A DNA stretch of 64,000 bases from the NCBI GenBank assembly GCA_036378675.1, contig DASUWA010000024.1, positions 1 to 64,000 of the forward strand, written 5' to 3'. This document shows, in pieces, positions 1,044 through 11,137 of the stretch (position 1 is its first letter; each line of letters begins with the position of its first letter). Made by a program: the position numbers and the translations under genes. The notes below the pieces were generated by a model, which was not told where the DNA came from, ran no database searches, and saw only the letters and a program-made list of their open reading frames with translations. This DNA is from Acidimicrobiales bacterium (GTDB lineage Bacteria; Actinomycetota; Acidimicrobiia; Acidimicrobiales; Palsa-688).

Positions 1044-1688
1044 CTATCGAGCCTCGCGAGAGAGCCTTTCGAGCCCCCCGGTGACCAGGCCTAAGTAGGT
1101 CTCCTCGAGGGCGGCGGCATTTTCTGCCGTGCGTCGGGTCCGCCATTGCAGCATGATCGAGTCGATCGCACCGAGCAGCATGGCGATCGCCCGCTGCGCG
1201 TCTCGTATGGGAAGCGAATACTCCTTGGCAGCCCGGGTAGCGAAGGCTTTCACGGTTGCGCGGTCGCGACCTCGCTGCTCCGCCCGAAGCTCGCGATTCC
1301 ACGCGCCCGCCGCTCGGAGTGCAGCGAACAGCGCGCCCCTTTCGACCGACACGCGCATCGAAGCGCGGATCAGCGCACGGAACATCCCCTCCAGCGAGTC
1401 CGCGCTGCGGACCTCGGCCGCCATCTCCTCGTGGAGCAGCCCGGCTTCACGCCGGTAAACCGCGGTGAGGAGTTCGCTCCGGTTTGCGAAGTGCTTGTAC
1501 ACCAGCGCCCTGCTGACCCGAGCCTCATCGGCGACGGAGTCCATAGTGACCGCTTCGACGCCTCGCACGGCAGCGATCTCGGCGGCGCTGTCGAGCAGCG
1601 ACTCCCGGCGCTCGATCCCGTTGAGCCGCGCTGCATCCCCGGCTCCGGCGGCTCTCACGCGAACGGGTGTTGTGCCGGACGAGGACAT
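1044..1688 (-). CDS. TetR/AcrR family transcriptional regulator
   Basis: A 214-residue protein with a typical TetR N-terminal helix-turn-helix: ERRESLLDSAAEIAAVRG, then the recognition-helix region SRALVYKHFANRSELL. The variable C-terminal ligand domain contains no recognisable signature. The ATG at 1688 lies directly against a palindrome at 1689-1705 and has no obvious ribosome-binding site. A GTG at 1658 would also give a normal TetR length, so the start is uncertain. It diverges from the amidohydrolase at 1767. It probably autoregulates and controls the amidohydrolase and the transporter operon, because matching palindromes lie upstream of both (inference). Confidence 0.93.
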   Translation of the reverse strand: MSSSGTTPVRVRAAGAGDAARLNGIERRESLLDSAAEIAAVRGVEAVTMDSVADEARVSRALVYKHFANRSELLTAVYRREAGLLHEEMAAEVRSADSLEGMFRALIRASMRVSVERGALFAALRAAGAWNRELRAEQRGRDRATVKAFATRAAKEYSLPIRDAQRAIAMLLGAIDSIMLQWRTRRTAENAAALEETYLGLVTGGLERLSREAR

Positions 1689-3125: not shown

Positions 3126-4967
3126 TTGCCGACGGGAGGAACTTCCAAACGGGAGCGTGACGAGACGTTGGCGAAGGTGAGCGATCCCTTCGCCCGCAAC
3201 ACCCTGCGGGCTGCTTACCACGTTCGCCGATTCCTCGTGATCTACGTGTGCGGTGGTTTGATCGCGATCGCACTGGCTCTGCTCCCAACCGTCGCCAACA
3301 ACGGACGGACCGCGGTCGGCGCCGGCTCCACCGGCGGCAGCCCTTACGGCGCCAACGCAGGCCCGAACGGTCCGGCGAACGCGAGCGCCGCCTCGAGCGC
3401 CGGGACTCTCGCCAGCAGCGGAGCGTCTGGCGCGTCGGGGGCAACATCCGCCAGCGGCCCGGCACAGGCTTCGGGTGCGGCGGCGGGCGCAGCATCGCAA
3501 GGTCCGGTCGGGAATACCGGGGGCCAGGTCGGCCACGGAATCACCGTCGGGGGCGCTGCCTGCGCGCCAGGCGTGCGCCAGATCTCCTACTCCGAATACG
3601 CCGCGCCTTGCGTCAGCAAGTGGTCCGGCAACAACGGCGGGGGAACCTGGAACGGCGTCACCGGGAACACCATCACCATCGCGATCAGGCACACGGCCGA
3701 CTCGTCCGGTCCGAATGCGGTAGCGACCGAGGCGGAGATCGAAGCTGCGGGAGGCGTGCAGTACAGCGTGGCGGAGCAGTACACCCAGCAGCTGGTCGCC
3801 TACTTCAACAAGGTCTTCGAGTTGTACGGCCGGCAGGTAAAGCTGGTCGACTTCAACGGGCAGGGCAACTACACCAACGAGGAGCTCGATCAGGATCAGG
3901 CTGCCGCCTGCGCCGACGCCGACGCGGCGGCGTCATCGATCCACGCCTTCGGGGTGATCGACTTCGAAGGCAATTTCGAACCGGCGCCGTTCGCTGAGTG
4001 CGCGCAGCGTTACAAGCTCTACATTCCCGAGGGCGCCGCCTACTTCCCGGAGTCGTTCTACCAGCGGCTGAACCCCTACGTATGGGGCATCACCATGAAC
4101 TGCACGCTCATATCTCAGGAGTTCGCCCAGTTCGCCGGGCAGCAGCTCTTCCCGTCCAATGCCAAGTGGGCCGGAATGGACGGCGTGCTCAACCTGGCCT
4201 CGCTGCCGCGCAAGATTGCCACCTACATCCCGAACAACGCCGGGTACCAGGACTGTCAGACGTACCAGAAGCAGCTTGTCCAACAGAACTACGGGATCGG
4301 CTCCAACCGCCAGGACCAGTACAACTACGCGCTCGACATCTCCACCTTCCCGCAAGACGCGCAGCGTGCAATCGTGCAGTTCTCCGCGAACGACGACACG
4401 AGCATCGAGCTCGCGTGCGACCCGATATCCCCGATCTTTCTTACCCAGGACGCGGTTCAACAGAACTACTACCCCGAGTGGGTTCTGAATGGTGTCGCGC
4501 TCACCGACAGCGACAACTTCGCGCAGCTATGGGACCAGCAAGCAATCAACGGCCACTTGTTCGGCATGTCCCAGGCCGGGGACACGGCCGCCCTCCTGAG
4601 CCCGAACGGTGAAGCCGGGCGGGTCCTCACGGCGGCGGGTGTGCCGGTCAACCCGTCTTCGGTGGTCGACTACTACGAGCTGCTGCCGATGTTCAACCAG
4701 CTGCAAGCCGCCGGACCAAACCTGACGCCGGCGAACATTGCGGCCGGGTCGGCCGGGCTTCCCGCCGGCGGGAGCGACACCAGCCCCGAAGGCCCGTGGT
4801 ACTTCGGTAACACCCACACGCTCATCCGCGGATCGCGCGAGGTCTGGTGGAACGGCAGCGGTCACTCCCAGGCCGACAACAAGACCGGAACCTACGTCTC
4901 GGTCTACGGCGGGCGGTTCTTCCAAGTCAACGAGTTCCCGAGCGGCCAGCCCCCGTTCTACCCGTGA
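3126..4967 (+). CDS. membrane-anchored ABC solute-binding protein (branched-chain amino acid type)
   Basis: A 613-residue protein starting at TTG 3126 behind a strong AGGGGGG ribosome-binding site. An uncleaved-looking transmembrane segment (about 36-57) is followed by an Ala/Gly/Ser-rich linker (about 60-155) and then a large periplasmic-binding-protein type I domain (from about 170, beginning WNGVTGNTITIAIRH). Anchoring by an N-terminal helix and flexible linker instead of a lipobox is unusual for an importer receptor. It overlaps the LivHM-like permease gene by 4 bp (GTGA), which argues that it delivers substrate to that permease. The ligand is unknown. Confidence 0.8.
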   Translation: MPTGGTSKRERDETLAKVSDPFARNTLRAAYHVRRFLVIYVCGGLIAIALALLPTVANNGRTAVGAGSTGGSPYGANAGPNGPANASAASSAGTLASSGASGASGATSASGPAQASGAAAGAASQGPVGNTGGQVGHGITVGGAACAPGVRQISYSEYAAPCVSKWSGNNGGGTWNGVTGNTITIAIRHTADSSGPNAVATEAEIEAAGGVQYSVAEQYTQQLVAYFNKVFELYGRQVKLVDFNGQGNYTNEELDQDQAAACADADAAASSIHAFGVIDFEGNFEPAPFAECAQRYKLYIPEGAAYFPESFYQRLNPYVWGITMNCTLISQEFAQFAGQQLFPSNAKWAGMDGVLNLASLPRKIATYIPNNAGYQDCQTYQKQLVQQNYGIGSNRQDQYNYALDISTFPQDAQRAIVQFSANDDTSIELACDPISPIFLTQDAVQQNYYPEWVLNGVALTDSDNFAQLWDQQAINGHLFGMSQAGDTAALLSPNGEAGRVLTAAGVPVNPSSVVDYYELLPMFNQLQAAGPNLTPANIAAGSAGLPAGGSDTSPEGPWYFGNTHTLIRGSREVWWNGSGHSQADNKTGTYVSVYGGRFFQVNEFPSGQPPFYP

Positions 4968-7108
4968 GTGTCCTACCGGTTGCCGTAGGTCGGGTACCGA
5001 AGCTCCCATCCGCTGCTCGGCCTCTGGCGGGCTTCGCCGGTGCGCTCATCGCGTGGGCGGTGCTTGCGCGGATCCTTCCCCACGGCGCTCCTGCGGGGAT
5101 CATCCTCGCCGGCGCGGTATTCGGAGGGATCAACTCGCTGGTCGCCATCTCCATCGTGCTGGTGTACAAGGCGAACCGGTTCATCAACTTCGCCGCAGCG
5201 GAGTTCGGGTCGGTCGCCGCTGTGATAGCGATCGAGCTCCACATCAGGGTCCATCTGAACTATTTCCTGTCGATCGCCACCGGTCTTGCCTTGTCGGCCG
5301 TTCTGGGGGCGGTGACCGAGGTGGCGATCCTCCGTCGGTTTGCAAAGGCCCCCAGGCTCATCGTCGCCGTAGCGACTATCGGGCTCGCGCAACTGCTCAA
5401 CGGGTTGTCGGTGATCATCCCGACGGAATGGAGCCACTACGGCAACGCCGGAACGTTCACGACTCCGTTCAACGTGCACTTCCTGCTTCGCCCGGTTCTA
5501 TTCAACGGTAACTACATCGTCGCGATCGTCGTGGTCCCGGTCGTTCTGGCGGCACTCGCGTGGTTCCTGCGCGGTACCAGCTACGGGACCGCCATCAGAG
5601 CGGCGGCCGACAACAGCGACCGCGCTCGGCTCATGGGTGTCCCGGTCGCAAGGCTCTCGACGATCGTTTGGACGATCACAGGAATTCTCTCCGCGCTGGC
5701 AGTCCTTCTGCGGGTTCCGATCCTCGGTTTCGAGTCCTTCGCCAGCGTCTCGGGAGGGGGCATCGACTTACTTCTCCAAACGCTGACTGCGGCTGTGATC
5801 GCGAGCATGACCAGCATCCCGGTCGCGCTGGTCGCCGCGGTGGGGCTTGGAATCGCCGAGCAGCTGGGAGCCTGGACTTTCCAGAATTCCACCTACGTCG
5901 ACGCGCTGTTGCTCGGGGTAATCCTGGCCACGCTCTTGTTGAGAAGGGACCGGCTCACCCGGGCTTCCGAAACCGGTATCGGCAACTGGCAGGCCATTCG
6001 CCCGGTCCGGCCCGTCCCGGCGGAGCTGGCCAACCTGCGGGAGGTTCGGCTCGGGCGCTCCGGGGTTCGCCTGGCCCTTCTCGCGTTCGGTCTCGTGCTC
6101 CCCTTCTTGATCACCCCCGCGAGGTCGCAGCTGGCGTCGCTCGTGCTGATCTACGCGATCGTCGCGGTGTCGCTGGTCGTATTGACCGGCTGGGCGGGAC
6201 ACATCTCCCTGGGTCAGGTCGCGCTGATGGGGTTCGGCGCGGCGGTGACCGGGAACCTTTTCGCCAATCACGGTTGGGACCTGTTCTTCGCGCTCGGTGC
6301 CGGTTGCGTGGTGTCGGGACTGTTGGCGCTCCTGATAGGCATCCCCGCACTTCGCATCAGCGGTCCCTACCTAGCGGTCGTAACCCTCGCGTTCGCGGTG
6401 ACGTCCGCGAACTACTTCCTCGTGCCGCGGTACTTCCACTGGCTGGACCCGTCGTCCCTGATTCAGCGCGCGCCTTTGTTCGGGAGGATCGGAATCTCCT
6501 CCGACCGGCAGATGTACTACGTGTGCTTCATAGCGCTCGTGCTGGTGCTCGTCGCCGCCCGTACTCTCCGATCGAGCCACGCCGGGCGCGCGATCATCGC
6601 GGGCAAGGAGAACCGCCTGGCCACGCAGTCGATCGGGCTAAGCACCACCCGCCTCGACCTTGTGGCGTTCGCCCTCTCGGGGATGATCGCCGGTCTCGCG
6701 GGAGGCCTGTTCGTAGTGCAGCAGCAGGCCTTCAACTTCAGCGCGTTCGATGCGTACAGCGGCCTGCTCTTTTTCACCATGGTCGTCATCGGGGGGCTCG
6801 GGTCGATTCCGGGCGCGGTGCTCGGTGCCATCTATGTCTACGGGTCCATCTACCTCCTCAAGCCGGGATTCCAGTTTCTTGCAACCGGTGCGGGCCTCCT
6901 GATCCTCCTGATGTTTCTGCCGGGCGGACTCGGTGAGCTCGTCTTCAGGGTCCGCGACCGGCTGCTTCGGCTCGTCGCCGATCGCCATAGGATCCTCGTC
7001 CCCAGCCTCGTCGCCGACCGCCGGGACGACCAGGAGCATCAGAGCTCCGAGCAGGAAGACGTCACGTCTCTCATCAGCGCGGGCCTCGTGAGGGAGCCGG
7101 CGAAGTGA
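4964..7108 (+). CDS. LivH-LivM fusion permease of a branched-chain-amino-acid-type ABC importer
   Basis: GTG at 4964 overlaps the preceding TGA and gives 714 residues. The open frame extends further upstream but only inside the binding-protein gene. The N-terminal half is LivH-like (VYKANRFINFAAAEFG near 68-83). The second half is LivM-like (LTGWAGHISLGQ near 405). Each half has multiple transmembrane segments. Normally these are two separate permeases; here one polypeptide supplies the whole membrane channel. A hydrophilic C-terminal tail rich in Asp/Glu/Gln follows the last helix. It is coupled to the downstream MFS-ATPase gene by a second GTGA overlap. Confidence 0.92.
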   Translation: MSVLPVAVGRVPKLPSAARPLAGFAGALIAWAVLARILPHGAPAGIILAGAVFGGINSLVAISIVLVYKANRFINFAAAEFGSVAAVIAIELHIRVHLNYFLSIATGLALSAVLGAVTEVAILRRFAKAPRLIVAVATIGLAQLLNGLSVIIPTEWSHYGNAGTFTTPFNVHFLLRPVLFNGNYIVAIVVVPVVLAALAWFLRGTSYGTAIRAAADNSDRARLMGVPVARLSTIVWTITGILSALAVLLRVPILGFESFASVSGGGIDLLLQTLTAAVIASMTSIPVALVAAVGLGIAEQLGAWTFQNSTYVDALLLGVILATLLLRRDRLTRASETGIGNWQAIRPVRPVPAELANLREVRLGRSGVRLALLAFGLVLPFLITPARSQLASLVLIYAIVAVSLVVLTGWAGHISLGQVALMGFGAAVTGNLFANHGWDLFFALGAGCVVSGLLALLIGIPALRISGPYLAVVTLAFAVTSANYFLVPRYFHWLDPSSLIQRAPLFGRIGISSDRQMYYVCFIALVLVLVAARTLRSSHAGRAIIAGKENRLATQSIGLSTTRLDLVAFALSGMIAGLAGGLFVVQQQAFNFSAFDAYSGLLFFTMVVIGGLGSIPGAVLGAIYVYGSIYLLKPGFQFLATGAGLLILLMFLPGGLGELVFRVRDRLLRLVADRHRILVPSLVADRRDDQEHQSSEQEDVTSLISAGLVREPAK

Positions 7109-10100
7109 TCGGCTCCCTCAAGCGGACGTGGTCCGAGCTCCAGGTTGCTCTGGAGCCGATCGGGGTCACCCCTCTACTGATCCTCCTTGGACTGGCGAGC
7201 GTCCAGACCTTCGATATCACCGCCTTCGGAGTTCTGTCGCCTGACATCCGCCACACCTTCCATCTCAGCAACTCGGGCATAGACGCGGTGGCGGGGCTAA
7301 CCGGTGCGCTGCCGATCGTCTTCGCGGTTGGGATCGGCTACCTCGGGGACCGCCACAGCAGGATTCGCCTGTCGGCGATCGCCGCAATCGTTTGGGGCGT
7401 AACCGCGATCGTCACCGGCCTGGCTCCGGTGCTGGCGATCCTGGTGATCGCCCGGATAGTCGGAGGGGTCGGCTTCATCGGCTCCGAAACCGTCTACCCG
7501 AGCCTCCTCTCCGACTACTACCGCCCCCAGGGCTTGGGTGAAGTATTCACGGGTTATCGGTTGGGGGCCCAGGGAATCGGCCTGCTCGGAGCCCCGCTCG
7601 CGGGATTCATCGCAACCCTCGTGGGATGGCGGCCGACCTTCGTCATCCTCGCCCTTCCCACCTTCGCGTTGGTCGCCTGCCTCGCCTTGATGCGCGAACC
7701 CGCCCGGGGCGCGTCGATCGGACTGTCGATGACCCAGCGCTCCTCCGCATCCCTTGGCGAGGGCTTCAGGAGGGTGAAGGCGATCCGCTCGCTCAGGAGA
7801 ACCTGGGGGTCGTCGTTCCTGTTCGGCGCCGGCACCATCCCCTTCGCCACCGTCGCCAGCAACTTCTTCAAGGACGTCTATCACCTGGGCGACACCGCCC
7901 GCGGCGGTGTAAGCGCTCTCCTCGGCATCGGCGGTCTGGTGGGCATCGCGCTAGGCGGATGGATGACCTCGAAGGCCCTCGCCGCACGGCGGCCCGATCG
8001 GTTGCCGGCGATCAGCGGGTTCCTGATCGTTTCTTTCGGCGGGCTGAGCCTCCTCATGGCGGTGGTCCCCAACCTCGCGGTCGCTGTGCTTCTCGCCGGA
8101 TTCGTCACCATCGGGGCGTTCGGCTACCTGCCGTCATACACGACGATGGTCTCGTTGGTTTCACCGCCGACCCTGCGCTCTCAGGCTTACGCGTGGTCGC
8201 TGCTCTTCTACGCCATAGGCGCTGTCGTCATCACCCCGATCATCGGCAGTGTCGGTGACTCGAACGGCCAGCGGGTGTCGCTTGCAGTTCTCGGCGTGAT
8301 CGTTGCTGCGGGGGGATTGGTCCAGGCGAGCGTGCAACGCTTCGTCGAAAAGGACGCCGAGTCGGCGATGCGCGCTCAAGAAGCGACCGGAGCCGATGCG
8401 CTGCTGTCGTGCCGCGGGGTGGATGCGTCTTACGACGGGGTGCAGGTGCTGTTCGGCGTGGACTTCGATCTCGGAGCCGGGGAGATGGTCGCAATTCTCG
8501 GAACCAACGGCGCAGGTAAGTCGACCTTCCTCAAGACCATCACCGGCCTTCTCGATCCAGTCGGCGGGACGGTCGTCTTCGACGGAGCGGAAATAACCCA
8601 CGCTGATCCTCAAGCCACCGCTCGAGCGGGGATCGTCCAGGTGCCCGGAGGAAGGGGCGTTTTCCCGACCCTTACCGTCGCCGAGAACCTGCGCATGGCG
8701 GGATGGCTCTACCGCAAGGACAAGCGGTACGTCGACGACGCGATCGCGCGGACCGTCGAGTACTTCCCGATCCTCGGGGAGCGGTCCCAAACCCTCGCCG
8801 GGTCCCTTTCCGGCGGTGAGCAGCAGATGCTGTCGCTCGCGCAGGCCTTCATAGGCAAGCCGAAGCTTCTACTGATCGACGAGCTGTCGCTCGGCTTGGC
8901 GCCCACGATCGTGAATCGCCTGGTCGAAATCGTGAGGGCCATTCACGATTCGGGAACGACCGTGGTCATCGTCGAGCAGTCGGTGAACACTGCACTCCGG
9001 CTTGCCGATCGCGCGGTCTTCATGGAAAAAGGGGAGGTCCGGTTCTCGGGACCGACCGCCGACCTGCTCGAGCGCCCCGACATATTGAGGGCCGTCTTCC
9101 TCCAAGGAGCAGGCGCCGTCAACGGCGCGGGGCCGGTGTCTCGAGATCGGACTGTCCGCGCGTCGCGTTCAACCCGCCGGTCGAGCGAGACCGAGCATCG
9201 TGTCGCGGGGGCTGACGAGCTGTCACACGAATTGGTCGATGAAGTTGCGGACCCGGCGGCTGCGCTGCAGACGTTCGGGCTTACCAAGACCTACGGAGGC
9301 ATCACCGCTGTCAACGATGTCGGCGTCTCGCTCCAACGCGGTGAGATCCTCGGGTTCATCGGCGCCAACGGCGCCGGCAAGACGACCCTGTTCGATCTGA
9401 TCTCCGGGTTCGCCCGGGCCGATCGCGGGCTCGTACTTCTCGAAGGACAGGACGTCAGCGGTTGGGGACCGCACCGCCGTGCGGCGGCGGGCCTGGGCAG
9501 GTCCTTCCAGGACGCGAGGCTGTGGCCGGCGTTGACGGTCGGCGAATCGCTGGCGCTGGCGATGCACGAGGAGGCGGAGATAACCGGCGTTTTCCCCTCA
9601 TTGCTCGGGCCACCCCGATTGGCCGATTCCGAAGCCGGGCTCCGTGCTCGAGTCGAAGAGCTGATCGCGTTGATGGGGCTCGGCGCGTTTCGGGACAAGT
9701 TCGTTTCGGAGCTGTCGACGGGGTCGCGGCGGATGGTAGAGCTCGCGGCGATAGTCGCGCGACGGCCCAAGGTCCTCCTTTTCGATGAACCGTCGTCGGG
9801 AATCGCACAGAGAGAGACCGAGGCGCTCGGCCCCTTGATTCACCGGATCCGGGATGAGCTCGATTGCAGCATCCTGATCATCGAGCACGACGTTCCTTTG
9901 TTGAGATCTGTCGCCGACCGGATGGTTGCGTTGGAGCTCGGCAGCGTCATCGCCACCGGTACGCCCGAAGAAGTGCTCCACGATCCGAAGGTGATCGAGT
10001 CCTACCTCGGGGCACCTGTCGGCCAGCCTGACGGGATGGAACGGGTCGAGCGCCCGCCCGAACTGGCCGAGAATCCGATCGTCGAGGATCCGACCGTCGA

Positions 10101-10137
10101 GCTTCCTGTAGTTGCAAGAGGCTCCAGCGGTGCCTAG
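7105..10137 (+). CDS. MFS transporter-LivF-LivG triple fusion protein
   Basis: A 1010-residue protein starting at GTG 7105. Residues about 20-415 form a 12-helix MFS-like domain with loop motif GYLGDRHSRIRL (78-89). Residues about 432-670 form a LivF-like ABC ATPase: Walker A GTNGAGKST (466-474), LSGGE (568-572), Walker B LLLIDE (588-593). A linker (about 670-718) leads to a LivG-like ATPase (about 720-970): Walker A GANGAGKTT (753-761), LSTGSRR (870-876), LLFDEP, IIEHD. One chain therefore carries both ATPases for the preceding permease plus an entire secondary-transporter domain. The reading frame is continuous with no frameshift. Confidence 0.92.
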   Translation: MIGSLKRTWSELQVALEPIGVTPLLILLGLASVQTFDITAFGVLSPDIRHTFHLSNSGIDAVAGLTGALPIVFAVGIGYLGDRHSRIRLSAIAAIVWGVTAIVTGLAPVLAILVIARIVGGVGFIGSETVYPSLLSDYYRPQGLGEVFTGYRLGAQGIGLLGAPLAGFIATLVGWRPTFVILALPTFALVACLALMREPARGASIGLSMTQRSSASLGEGFRRVKAIRSLRRTWGSSFLFGAGTIPFATVASNFFKDVYHLGDTARGGVSALLGIGGLVGIALGGWMTSKALAARRPDRLPAISGFLIVSFGGLSLLMAVVPNLAVAVLLAGFVTIGAFGYLPSYTTMVSLVSPPTLRSQAYAWSLLFYAIGAVVITPIIGSVGDSNGQRVSLAVLGVIVAAGGLVQASVQRFVEKDAESAMRAQEATGADALLSCRGVDASYDGVQVLFGVDFDLGAGEMVAILGTNGAGKSTFLKTITGLLDPVGGTVVFDGAEITHADPQATARAGIVQVPGGRGVFPTLTVAENLRMAGWLYRKDKRYVDDAIARTVEYFPILGERSQTLAGSLSGGEQQMLSLAQAFIGKPKLLLIDELSLGLAPTIVNRLVEIVRAIHDSGTTVVIVEQSVNTALRLADRAVFMEKGEVRFSGPTADLLERPDILRAVFLQGAGAVNGAGPVSRDRTVRASRSTRRSSETEHRVAGADELSHELVDEVADPAAALQTFGLTKTYGGITAVNDVGVSLQRGEILGFIGANGAGKTTLFDLISGFARADRGLVLLEGQDVSGWGPHRRAAAGLGRSFQDARLWPALTVGESLALAMHEEAEITGVFPSLLGPPRLADSEAGLRARVEELIALMGLGAFRDKFVSELSTGSRRMVELAAIVARRPKVLLFDEPSSGIAQRETEALGPLIHRIRDELDCSILIIEHDVPLLRSVADRMVALELGSVIATGTPEEVLHDPKVIESYLGAPVGQPDGMERVERPPELAENPIVEDPTVELPVVARGSSGA

Positions 10138-11137
10138 GCGCCGGCTCATCCTCATCGCGACGGCCGTCGCGTTGGGCGGCTCGTCTGCCGGGCTTTGGGC
10201 CGTTCCCGCGCACGCGGCAGCCCCGGTGAAGGATGGTTGGTGGACCGTCACCAACACCGGCTTCGGCGTGGCACCGCCCGCGCCGCCCCAAGTCCCGTCC
10301 GGCGGTCTGTACATCGAAAACGGTTTCACCGGCCCCACCGCGATCTCCGCCCTCACCTTCCAGGTCGGCGCCGGCGACGAAGTCGGATCGATCACTCTCA
10401 AAGTCGCGGGCAACCCGGTCATCACCAGCCCACCGGTCGCCTGCCCGATTACCCCCGCCGGCCAGAACTACAAACCCGCGCAGGGGGGACCATGGACGGA
10501 CGTCCCTGCATACGACTGCACCAAATCTCAGGTGACGGGAACGGTTAGCTCGAACAGCACGACGGTCACGTTCGCCGCCGGACCTCTGCTCGAGAACGGA
10601 ACCGTTGCTGCCGTCATCAAGGCTGGCGGCACCGCCGACCGGGTCGCTTTCGATCAACCAGGCCCCGACACCCTCCAGGTAACCCCCGCCGGCGAGCCGA
10701 GCGGCGGTGCCACGGGAGCGCCGGCAGGAACACCGGCCGATCAGGGCGCGTCCTCTCCTGTCGGCACCGGTGACAACGGCAGCTTCGGCAGCGCCGCACC
10801 CGCTGCTCCGAGCTCACCGTTGTCGTTAGTTCCGGCCGCTCCCGCCGCCGGCACCCCGCCCGCAATTGCGCCGGGGGTGCCGTCGGGAGTGTCTCCGACC
10901 GGCAGCCCGGGTACCGGGTCTCCGAGCGGGTCTGCCCCAACTGCGCGGCAGCGAACCCAACTTTCCCGCTCAACCGGTTCCGGCTCGTCGGTTCGCAAGG
11001 ACCTCGCCGAGGCGATCGGCATCGCCGCAGTCCTCGCGGCCCTCGTCGCTTACACGGAGGGATTCGGTCTTCTCGGTGGGCGAATCGACCGTCCCTCTGC
11101 GCGTCAACGGCCGGCGAGAGCGAGCTCCGAAGCGTAA
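10130..11137 (+). CDS. secreted/surface protein of unknown function, last gene of transporter operon
   Basis: GTG at 10130 (AGAGG about 8 nt upstream) is preferred to a TTG at 10112; it overlaps the fusion gene by 8 bp. The N-terminus PRRRLILIATAVALGG with cleavage after AHA is a clear signal peptide. Then comes a beta-rich domain (about 35-190) with paired cysteines and no recognised family, a long Pro/Gly/Ser linker, and a C-terminal transmembrane helix (EAIGIAAVLAALVAYTEGF) followed by an Arg-rich tail. The topology is an extracytoplasmic domain held by one C-terminal helix. Its place at the end of the operon suggests a surface partner of the transporter. It overlaps the convergent lipoprotein gene by 34 bp. 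Confidence 0.7.
   Translation: MPRRRLILIATAVALGGSSAGLWAVPAHAAAPVKDGWWTVTNTGFGVAPPAPPQVPSGGLYIENGFTGPTAISALTFQVGAGDEVGSITLKVAGNPVITSPPVACPITPAGQNYKPAQGGPWTDVPAYDCTKSQVTGTVSSNSTTVTFAAGPLLENGTVAAVIKAGGTADRVAFDQPGPDTLQVTPAGEPSGGATGAPAGTPADQGASSPVGTGDNGSFGSAAPAAPSSPLSLVPAAPAAGTPPAIAPGVPSGVSPTGSPGTGSPSGSAPTARQRTQLSRSTGSGSSVRKDLAEAIGIAAVLAALVAYTEGFGLLGGRIDRPSARQRPARASSEA

Follow-up and report, generated by a model that had tools for sequence, protein, structure and literature searches.

Near the start of the window (the whole stretch of 64,000 nucleotides that was analysed) lies a cluster of overlapping genes with the following features.

3126..4967, + strand: putative extracytoplasmic substrate-binding protein, 613 aa counted from TTG (start uncertain)
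4964..7108, + strand: LivH-LivM fused permease (HM), 714 aa; BPD_transp_2 twice, E 1e-55 (Pfam)
7105-10137, + strand: MFS-LivF-LivG fusion frame (MFS-F-G), GTG start; 1010 codons open, no stop inside
7105..8334, + strand: Spinster-type MFS domain, residues 1-410 (MFS_1; AlphaFold; HnSpns top match in the PDB profile search)
8335..8397, + strand: short helical link from TM12 to the first strand of LivF, residues 411-431 (secondary structure, spacing statistics)
8398..9102, + strand: LivF-type ABC ATPase, residues 432-666 (Pfam, NCBIfam, invariant alignment columns)
9103..9255, + strand: flexible F-G linker, residues 667-717 (low model confidence)
9256..10017, + strand: LivG-type ABC ATPase with BCA_ABC_TP_C tail, residues 718-971 (Pfam, NCBIfam)
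10018..10137, + strand: disordered C-terminal tail (pLDDT <50) and stop codon of the fusion gene
10130..11137, + strand: accessory protein, 335 aa, named SEC here; overlaps the end of the fusion gene

The permease gene shares a four-base GTGA overlap with each of its neighbours, the binding-protein gene and the fusion gene, and therefore the genes are considered to form an operon in the order binding protein, HM, MFS-F-G and SEC, the last being secreted or membrane-anchored. A TetR-type regulator is encoded upstream on the opposite strand (window positions 1044-1688), and about 22 related loci likewise have a TetR gene upstream of the operon. Neighbouring genes (TetR, uracil-DNA glycosylase, PLP enzyme, AMP-ligase-like protein, hydrolases, sulfatase) were considered as a guide to the substrate and gave no coherent pathway; those that recur look like clade synteny or regulation.

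The 1010-residue product of the fusion gene matches MFS_1 (E 5e-32, residues 30-373), ABC_tran twice (E 5e-60) and BCA_ABC_TP_C (residues 948-970) in Pfam. In NCBIfam an UrtE/LivF-like ATPase is followed by an UrtD/LivG-like one; the equivalog cut-off of UrtE is reached and those of LivF, LivG and UrtD are missed. Passing the UrtE cut-off does not show urea transport. The ATPase motif residues coincide with invariant columns of the family alignment. The LivF-type ATPase has Walker A GTNGAGKS (466-473), signature LSGGE (568-572), Walker B with Glu593, and Gln in place of the switch His. The LivG-type ATPase has Walker A GANGAGKT (753-760), a degenerate signature LSTGS (870-874), Walker B with Glu895, and the switch His928. 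The AlphaFold model contains 12 confident transmembrane helices (TM1-TM12, residues ~21-408), and in this model, which is based on an alignment of 28 sequences, the helix 411-427 runs straight into the first strand of LivF. In the full model the F-G linker is disordered and G is folded; the MFS domain modelled alone has pLDDT 88 and pTM 0.84. A BFVD fold search with the full fusion model gave nothing informative. The preliminary description had read an uninterrupted frame with a 12-helix MFS domain carrying motif A and two ATPases with complete motifs. This holds for the open frame, the domains and the helices, but the signature of G is not canonical. The junction, placed there near 8350, lies near 8330-8400.

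A search for the same domain order, suggested in that description, found it in many genomes. At a strict threshold, 42 of the class's 296 genomes, from 33 of its 148 genera, contain full-length fusions with 41-52% identity; these relatives share the domain order, and internal stops are absent from nearly all of them. When public species genomes were scanned separately with the MFS profile, 146 relatives were obtained, 80 of which were kept. On 69 of the 80 contigs the order is MFS-F-G, and the rest encode MFS-F or MFS, mostly truncated by contig ends; this set overlaps the 296 class genomes in some genomes. The public matches are almost all labelled as Acidimicrobiia or other actinobacteria, the complete genome IMCC26256 among them, and fusions occur in further classes of the phylum besides Acidimicrobiia. 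The plasmid collection gave no match. Seven to eleven copies matching the MFS profile, mostly fused frames, were observed in G662, G079, G329, G655 and other genomes, which is a large lineage-specific expansion. Three public records labelled Bifidobacterium breve (L094, L141, L144) carry an Acidimicrobiia-type fusion and are probably mislabelled metagenome bins.

Domain maps of whole-genome loci show several architectures. Class A loci encode HM, MFS-F-G and the binding protein separately. Class B loci encode MFS-F and HM-G, with no recognisable binding protein of the window's family close by. Further layouts are HM, MFS-F, G and MFS-F, HM, G. In a partly redundant set of 150 proteins the domain C-terminal to the MFS is F in 143 and G in none, the other seven being free-standing or cut by contig ends. 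Thus G may be joined to F or to HM or stand alone, whereas the MFS-to-F junction is constant. In one assembly HM-MFS-F-G appears to run through a single frame of 1728 residues (L050:5374-10560, G064:C115). Many other frames of about 1700 residues were considered as whole-transporter fusions and rejected, as most are upstream read-through over the HM gene, with HM in another frame; L050 is the only case left.

The window's genome also encodes systems of the types HM-F-G, HM with F-G, and HM-G with F, all without MFS; its paralogues C32, C11 and C56 have F-G or HM-F-G. On another contig of the same genome, C68, MFS-F lies beside HM-G (L073:7043-9385). Its MFS is strongly degenerate (53 bits) and possibly has lost transport and kept its place.

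The HM permease adjoins 64 of 66 fusions, both exceptions being at contig ends. In H as well as in M, the NBD-docking (coupling) loop is conserved across classes A and B. Thus it is most likely that ATP hydrolysis drives the separate LivHM permease, as the preliminary description had proposed. With their usual docking sites on HM preserved, the two ATPases have no need of the MFS as a membrane partner. The putative binding protein of the window has an N-terminal membrane segment followed by a stretch rich in Ala, Gly and Ser. In 43 of 50 class A loci, a homologue is encoded no more than 4 kb from the fusion. Three of 16 family members have a weak match to Peripla_BP_6; the window copy has no match in Pfam, and the profile search of the binding protein against PDB gave none, so that the protein offered no usable hint of the substrate. 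SEC has a predicted signal peptide, a small domain with the pattern GWW...GGLYV, for which no match was found in Pfam, a Pro/Ala-rich stretch and a C-terminal membrane segment. In each of the first five matches, a homologue flanks an operon of this ABC clade, and in further loci homologues directly follow F-G with the MFS present or absent. Members of the family were observed at window positions 10130-11137 and at L079:7305-8369, L192:6603-7598, L053:4196-5713 and L213:9016-9936. SEC looks like an extracytoplasmic subunit.

Between D417 of the MFS and the Walker A lysine of F, 47 of 51 class A proteins have 64-65 residues and 13 of 16 class B proteins have 64-66. In the window and its two nearest relatives this distance is 55 residues, the link being nine residues shorter in this clade. 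Unlike the MFS-F link, the F-G linker is variable, with 134-196 residues between Walker B of F and Walker A of G. A loose tether would not be expected to hold its length to one residue over such divergence. This near-fixed spacing is the best evidence that MFS and F make up a single rigid unit, and the two may move together.

In 33 main-clade operons the median pairwise identity is 39% for the binding protein, 43% for H, 46% for M, 49% for the MFS, 60% for G and 68% for F. Rough pairwise dN/dS values of the MFS (NG86, with dS partly saturated) range from 0.08 to 0.37, close to those of F and G and mostly not above those of H and M. The MFS is under purifying selection. The main groupings around the window are concordant in the MFS and F trees; therefore, the unit has been inherited together. 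Four free-standing MFS relatives (L191, L195, L243, L245) are nested among the fusions or score highly, and they keep most of the cavity residues. Thus the MFS is able to stand as a separate protein. A further free MFS, at L244, is divergent to a binding-protein/HM-F operon. The closest relative of the window fusion belongs to another class, and five of seven genomes of the window's own family have no match to the MFS profile; by these sequence comparisons, horizontal transfer of the window fusion is likely. At L221:5787-8033, the MFS of an MFS-F protein groups with an ordinary free-standing Spinster-like MFS on long branches, which possibly reflects an independent capture or a tree artefact.

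In a PDB profile search with 22 family members, HnSpns was the first match (E 4.5e-34) and Spns1 the second (1.6e-23). Fold searches agreed that the domain has a complete and ordinary MFS fold, placed near Spns1/2, OxlT and SV2, with many MFS proteins nearly tied. The reference residues of HnSpns are Asp41, Arg42, Arg122, the motif-A relay Asp87-Arg91-Asp142 and the proton switch Glu129 (PMC9440201). Asp41, Arg122 and the relay correspond to D37, R117 and D82-R86-D137 of the family and are kept in almost all class A proteins. Arg42 corresponds to R38, which is present in most members and replaced by Ile38 in the window copy. Thus, of the Asp-Arg pair in TM1 and the Arg in TM4, the window copy keeps D37 and R117 and lacks R38, the substrate arginine. 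Most main-clade members have Lys or Arg at position 124, the equivalent of Glu129, where the window copy has Phe. The main clade has additional conserved residues, His131 and His151-Arg152; His131 and His151 are missing from the window copy. The motif REPxRG after TM6 is common to the family and the Spinster proteins. The charged helix residues, which the preliminary description had singled out, are therefore kept in the family, but several are lost in the window copy. As the Glu129 switch is absent, the known proton-coupled cycle of Spns cannot be assumed. The motif-A relay and the other retained residues, together with the loss of Glu129, mean that the alternating-access hardware has been retained and the known proton switch has not. 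Judged by fold and sequence, the MFS domain is Spinster-like, but it is not classed with the proton-coupled Spns.

The alignments and models show a conserved architecture with fixed spacing, a complete co-encoded importer, ATPases with intact catalytic motifs, and an intact MFS fold with an intact motif-A relay. The most likely explanation, to which we give about an even chance, is an importer of the LivJHMFG/HAAT type with a Spinster-type MFS carrier as a built-in module of LivF. The binding protein would hand the substrate to the LivHM permease. Uptake would be powered by the F and G ATPases, which are carried on one chain and would engage both coupling loops of HM. The MFS module may lie beside HM and pack against it; the helix that joins it to F, almost constant in length, would tie its alternating-access state mechanically to the open or closed state of the ATPase pair. 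As a partner carrier, its most likely role, it could export or exchange a product or co-substrate, or provide a second route for the same compound. It would be gated by the ATPases, or gate them. Against this explanation count the loss of the Glu129 switch, the missing R38, His131 and His151 of the window copy, and the degenerate MFS on C68, which is still fused.

A bolder version, which we regard as doubtful, makes the whole a hybrid transporter. The alternating access of the MFS would be geared to the ABC ATPases, or the reverse, so that hydrolysis, LivHM uptake and MFS movement would form one cycle, possibly an ATP-driven exchange.

Next after the partner carrier, and a tentative candidate, is an MFS that does not transport. 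As a ligand sensor or allosteric regulator (transceptor-like), it would signal the level of substrate or product to LivF through the helix. The fixed MFS-F spacing and the retained fold and relay are consistent with such a role, as are the loss of the Glu129 switch and the loss of cavity charges in some clades, including that of the window. Fusions of regulatory domains to MFS or ABC transporters are well documented (PMC10710835). On the other hand, ABC importers are usually regulated by small soluble domains, and the conserved central charges of the main clade, together with the free-standing relatives having the same charges, resemble a working carrier.

The preliminary description had also allowed that the MFS might simply be a membrane anchor, or an assembly aid, for the ATPases. 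Degenerate members such as the C68 copy point in this direction, and most loci encode the permease as a separate chain. However, this explanation is unlikely. It is weakened because the same genome runs paralogous systems without any MFS, because conservation of the MFS equals or exceeds that of the permease and because free-standing relatives share the cavity residues. Indeed, an anchor has no need of invariant motif-A and cavity residues, and in class B, where G is already fused to HM, F still bears an MFS.

It is possible, although improbable and weakly supported, that the ATPases drive the MFS itself, closure of the NBDs powering alternating access in a hybrid primary/secondary pump beside HM or in step with it. 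The conserved length of the helix from TM12 to F would suit such a pump, and loss of the proton switch takes away the usual energy source; however, the natural motor partner is the co-encoded HM with both docking loops, the MFS is tied to just one of the two NBDs, and the free-standing MFS relatives have no ATPase. Finally, a sequencing error, or a frameshift or misassembly joining separate genes, is ruled out, because dozens of independent genomes carry the same fusion, with internal stops absent from almost all of them, and because the trees are concordant.

Textbooks treat secondary carriers and ABC transporters as separate classes. An MFS welded to LivF at near-invariant spacing, in a family that extends across a bacterial class with up to about ten copies of the MFS profile per genome, is a natural experiment on whether two such mechanisms can be coupled. 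The question can be put to a direct test: all parts are intact, split forms and forms lacking the MFS can serve as controls, and two or three polypeptides hold everything. Automated annotation may label such fusions after one half only.

The HAAT/Liv importers of branched-chain amino acids (LivKHMGF; also UrtABCDE) constitute TC 3.A.1.4. The operon resembles them in having H and M with both coupling loops, F and G ATPases, BCA_ABC_TP_C on G and a putative binding protein. It differs by the fusion of H to M and of F to G, by a large and highly divergent binding protein, and by the MFS on F. With the Spinster proteins HnSpns, Spns1 and Spns2 the MFS shares the fold, the family residues D37/R38 and R117, the motif-A relay and REPxRG after TM6, whereas Glu129 is replaced by Lys or Arg or lost, the main clade has His131 and His151-Arg152, and an ABC ATPase follows at the C-terminus.

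MFS proteins with fused C-terminal domains have been surveyed (Willson et al. 2019, as cited in PMC10710835). No description of a fusion between an MFS protein and an ABC ATPase was found in the open-access full-text literature; absence there is not proof, and the 2019 survey may list ABC_tran fusions. A known example of a C-terminal fusion is LplT-Aas, in which a lysophospholipid transporter is joined to an acyltransferase (PMC11416262). Similarly to the protein described here, such fusions combine a 12-helix MFS with a functional cytoplasmic C-terminal domain; here, however, the MFS is joined to the motor of another complete transporter. All component families are known, and it is their conserved combination that appears to be new.
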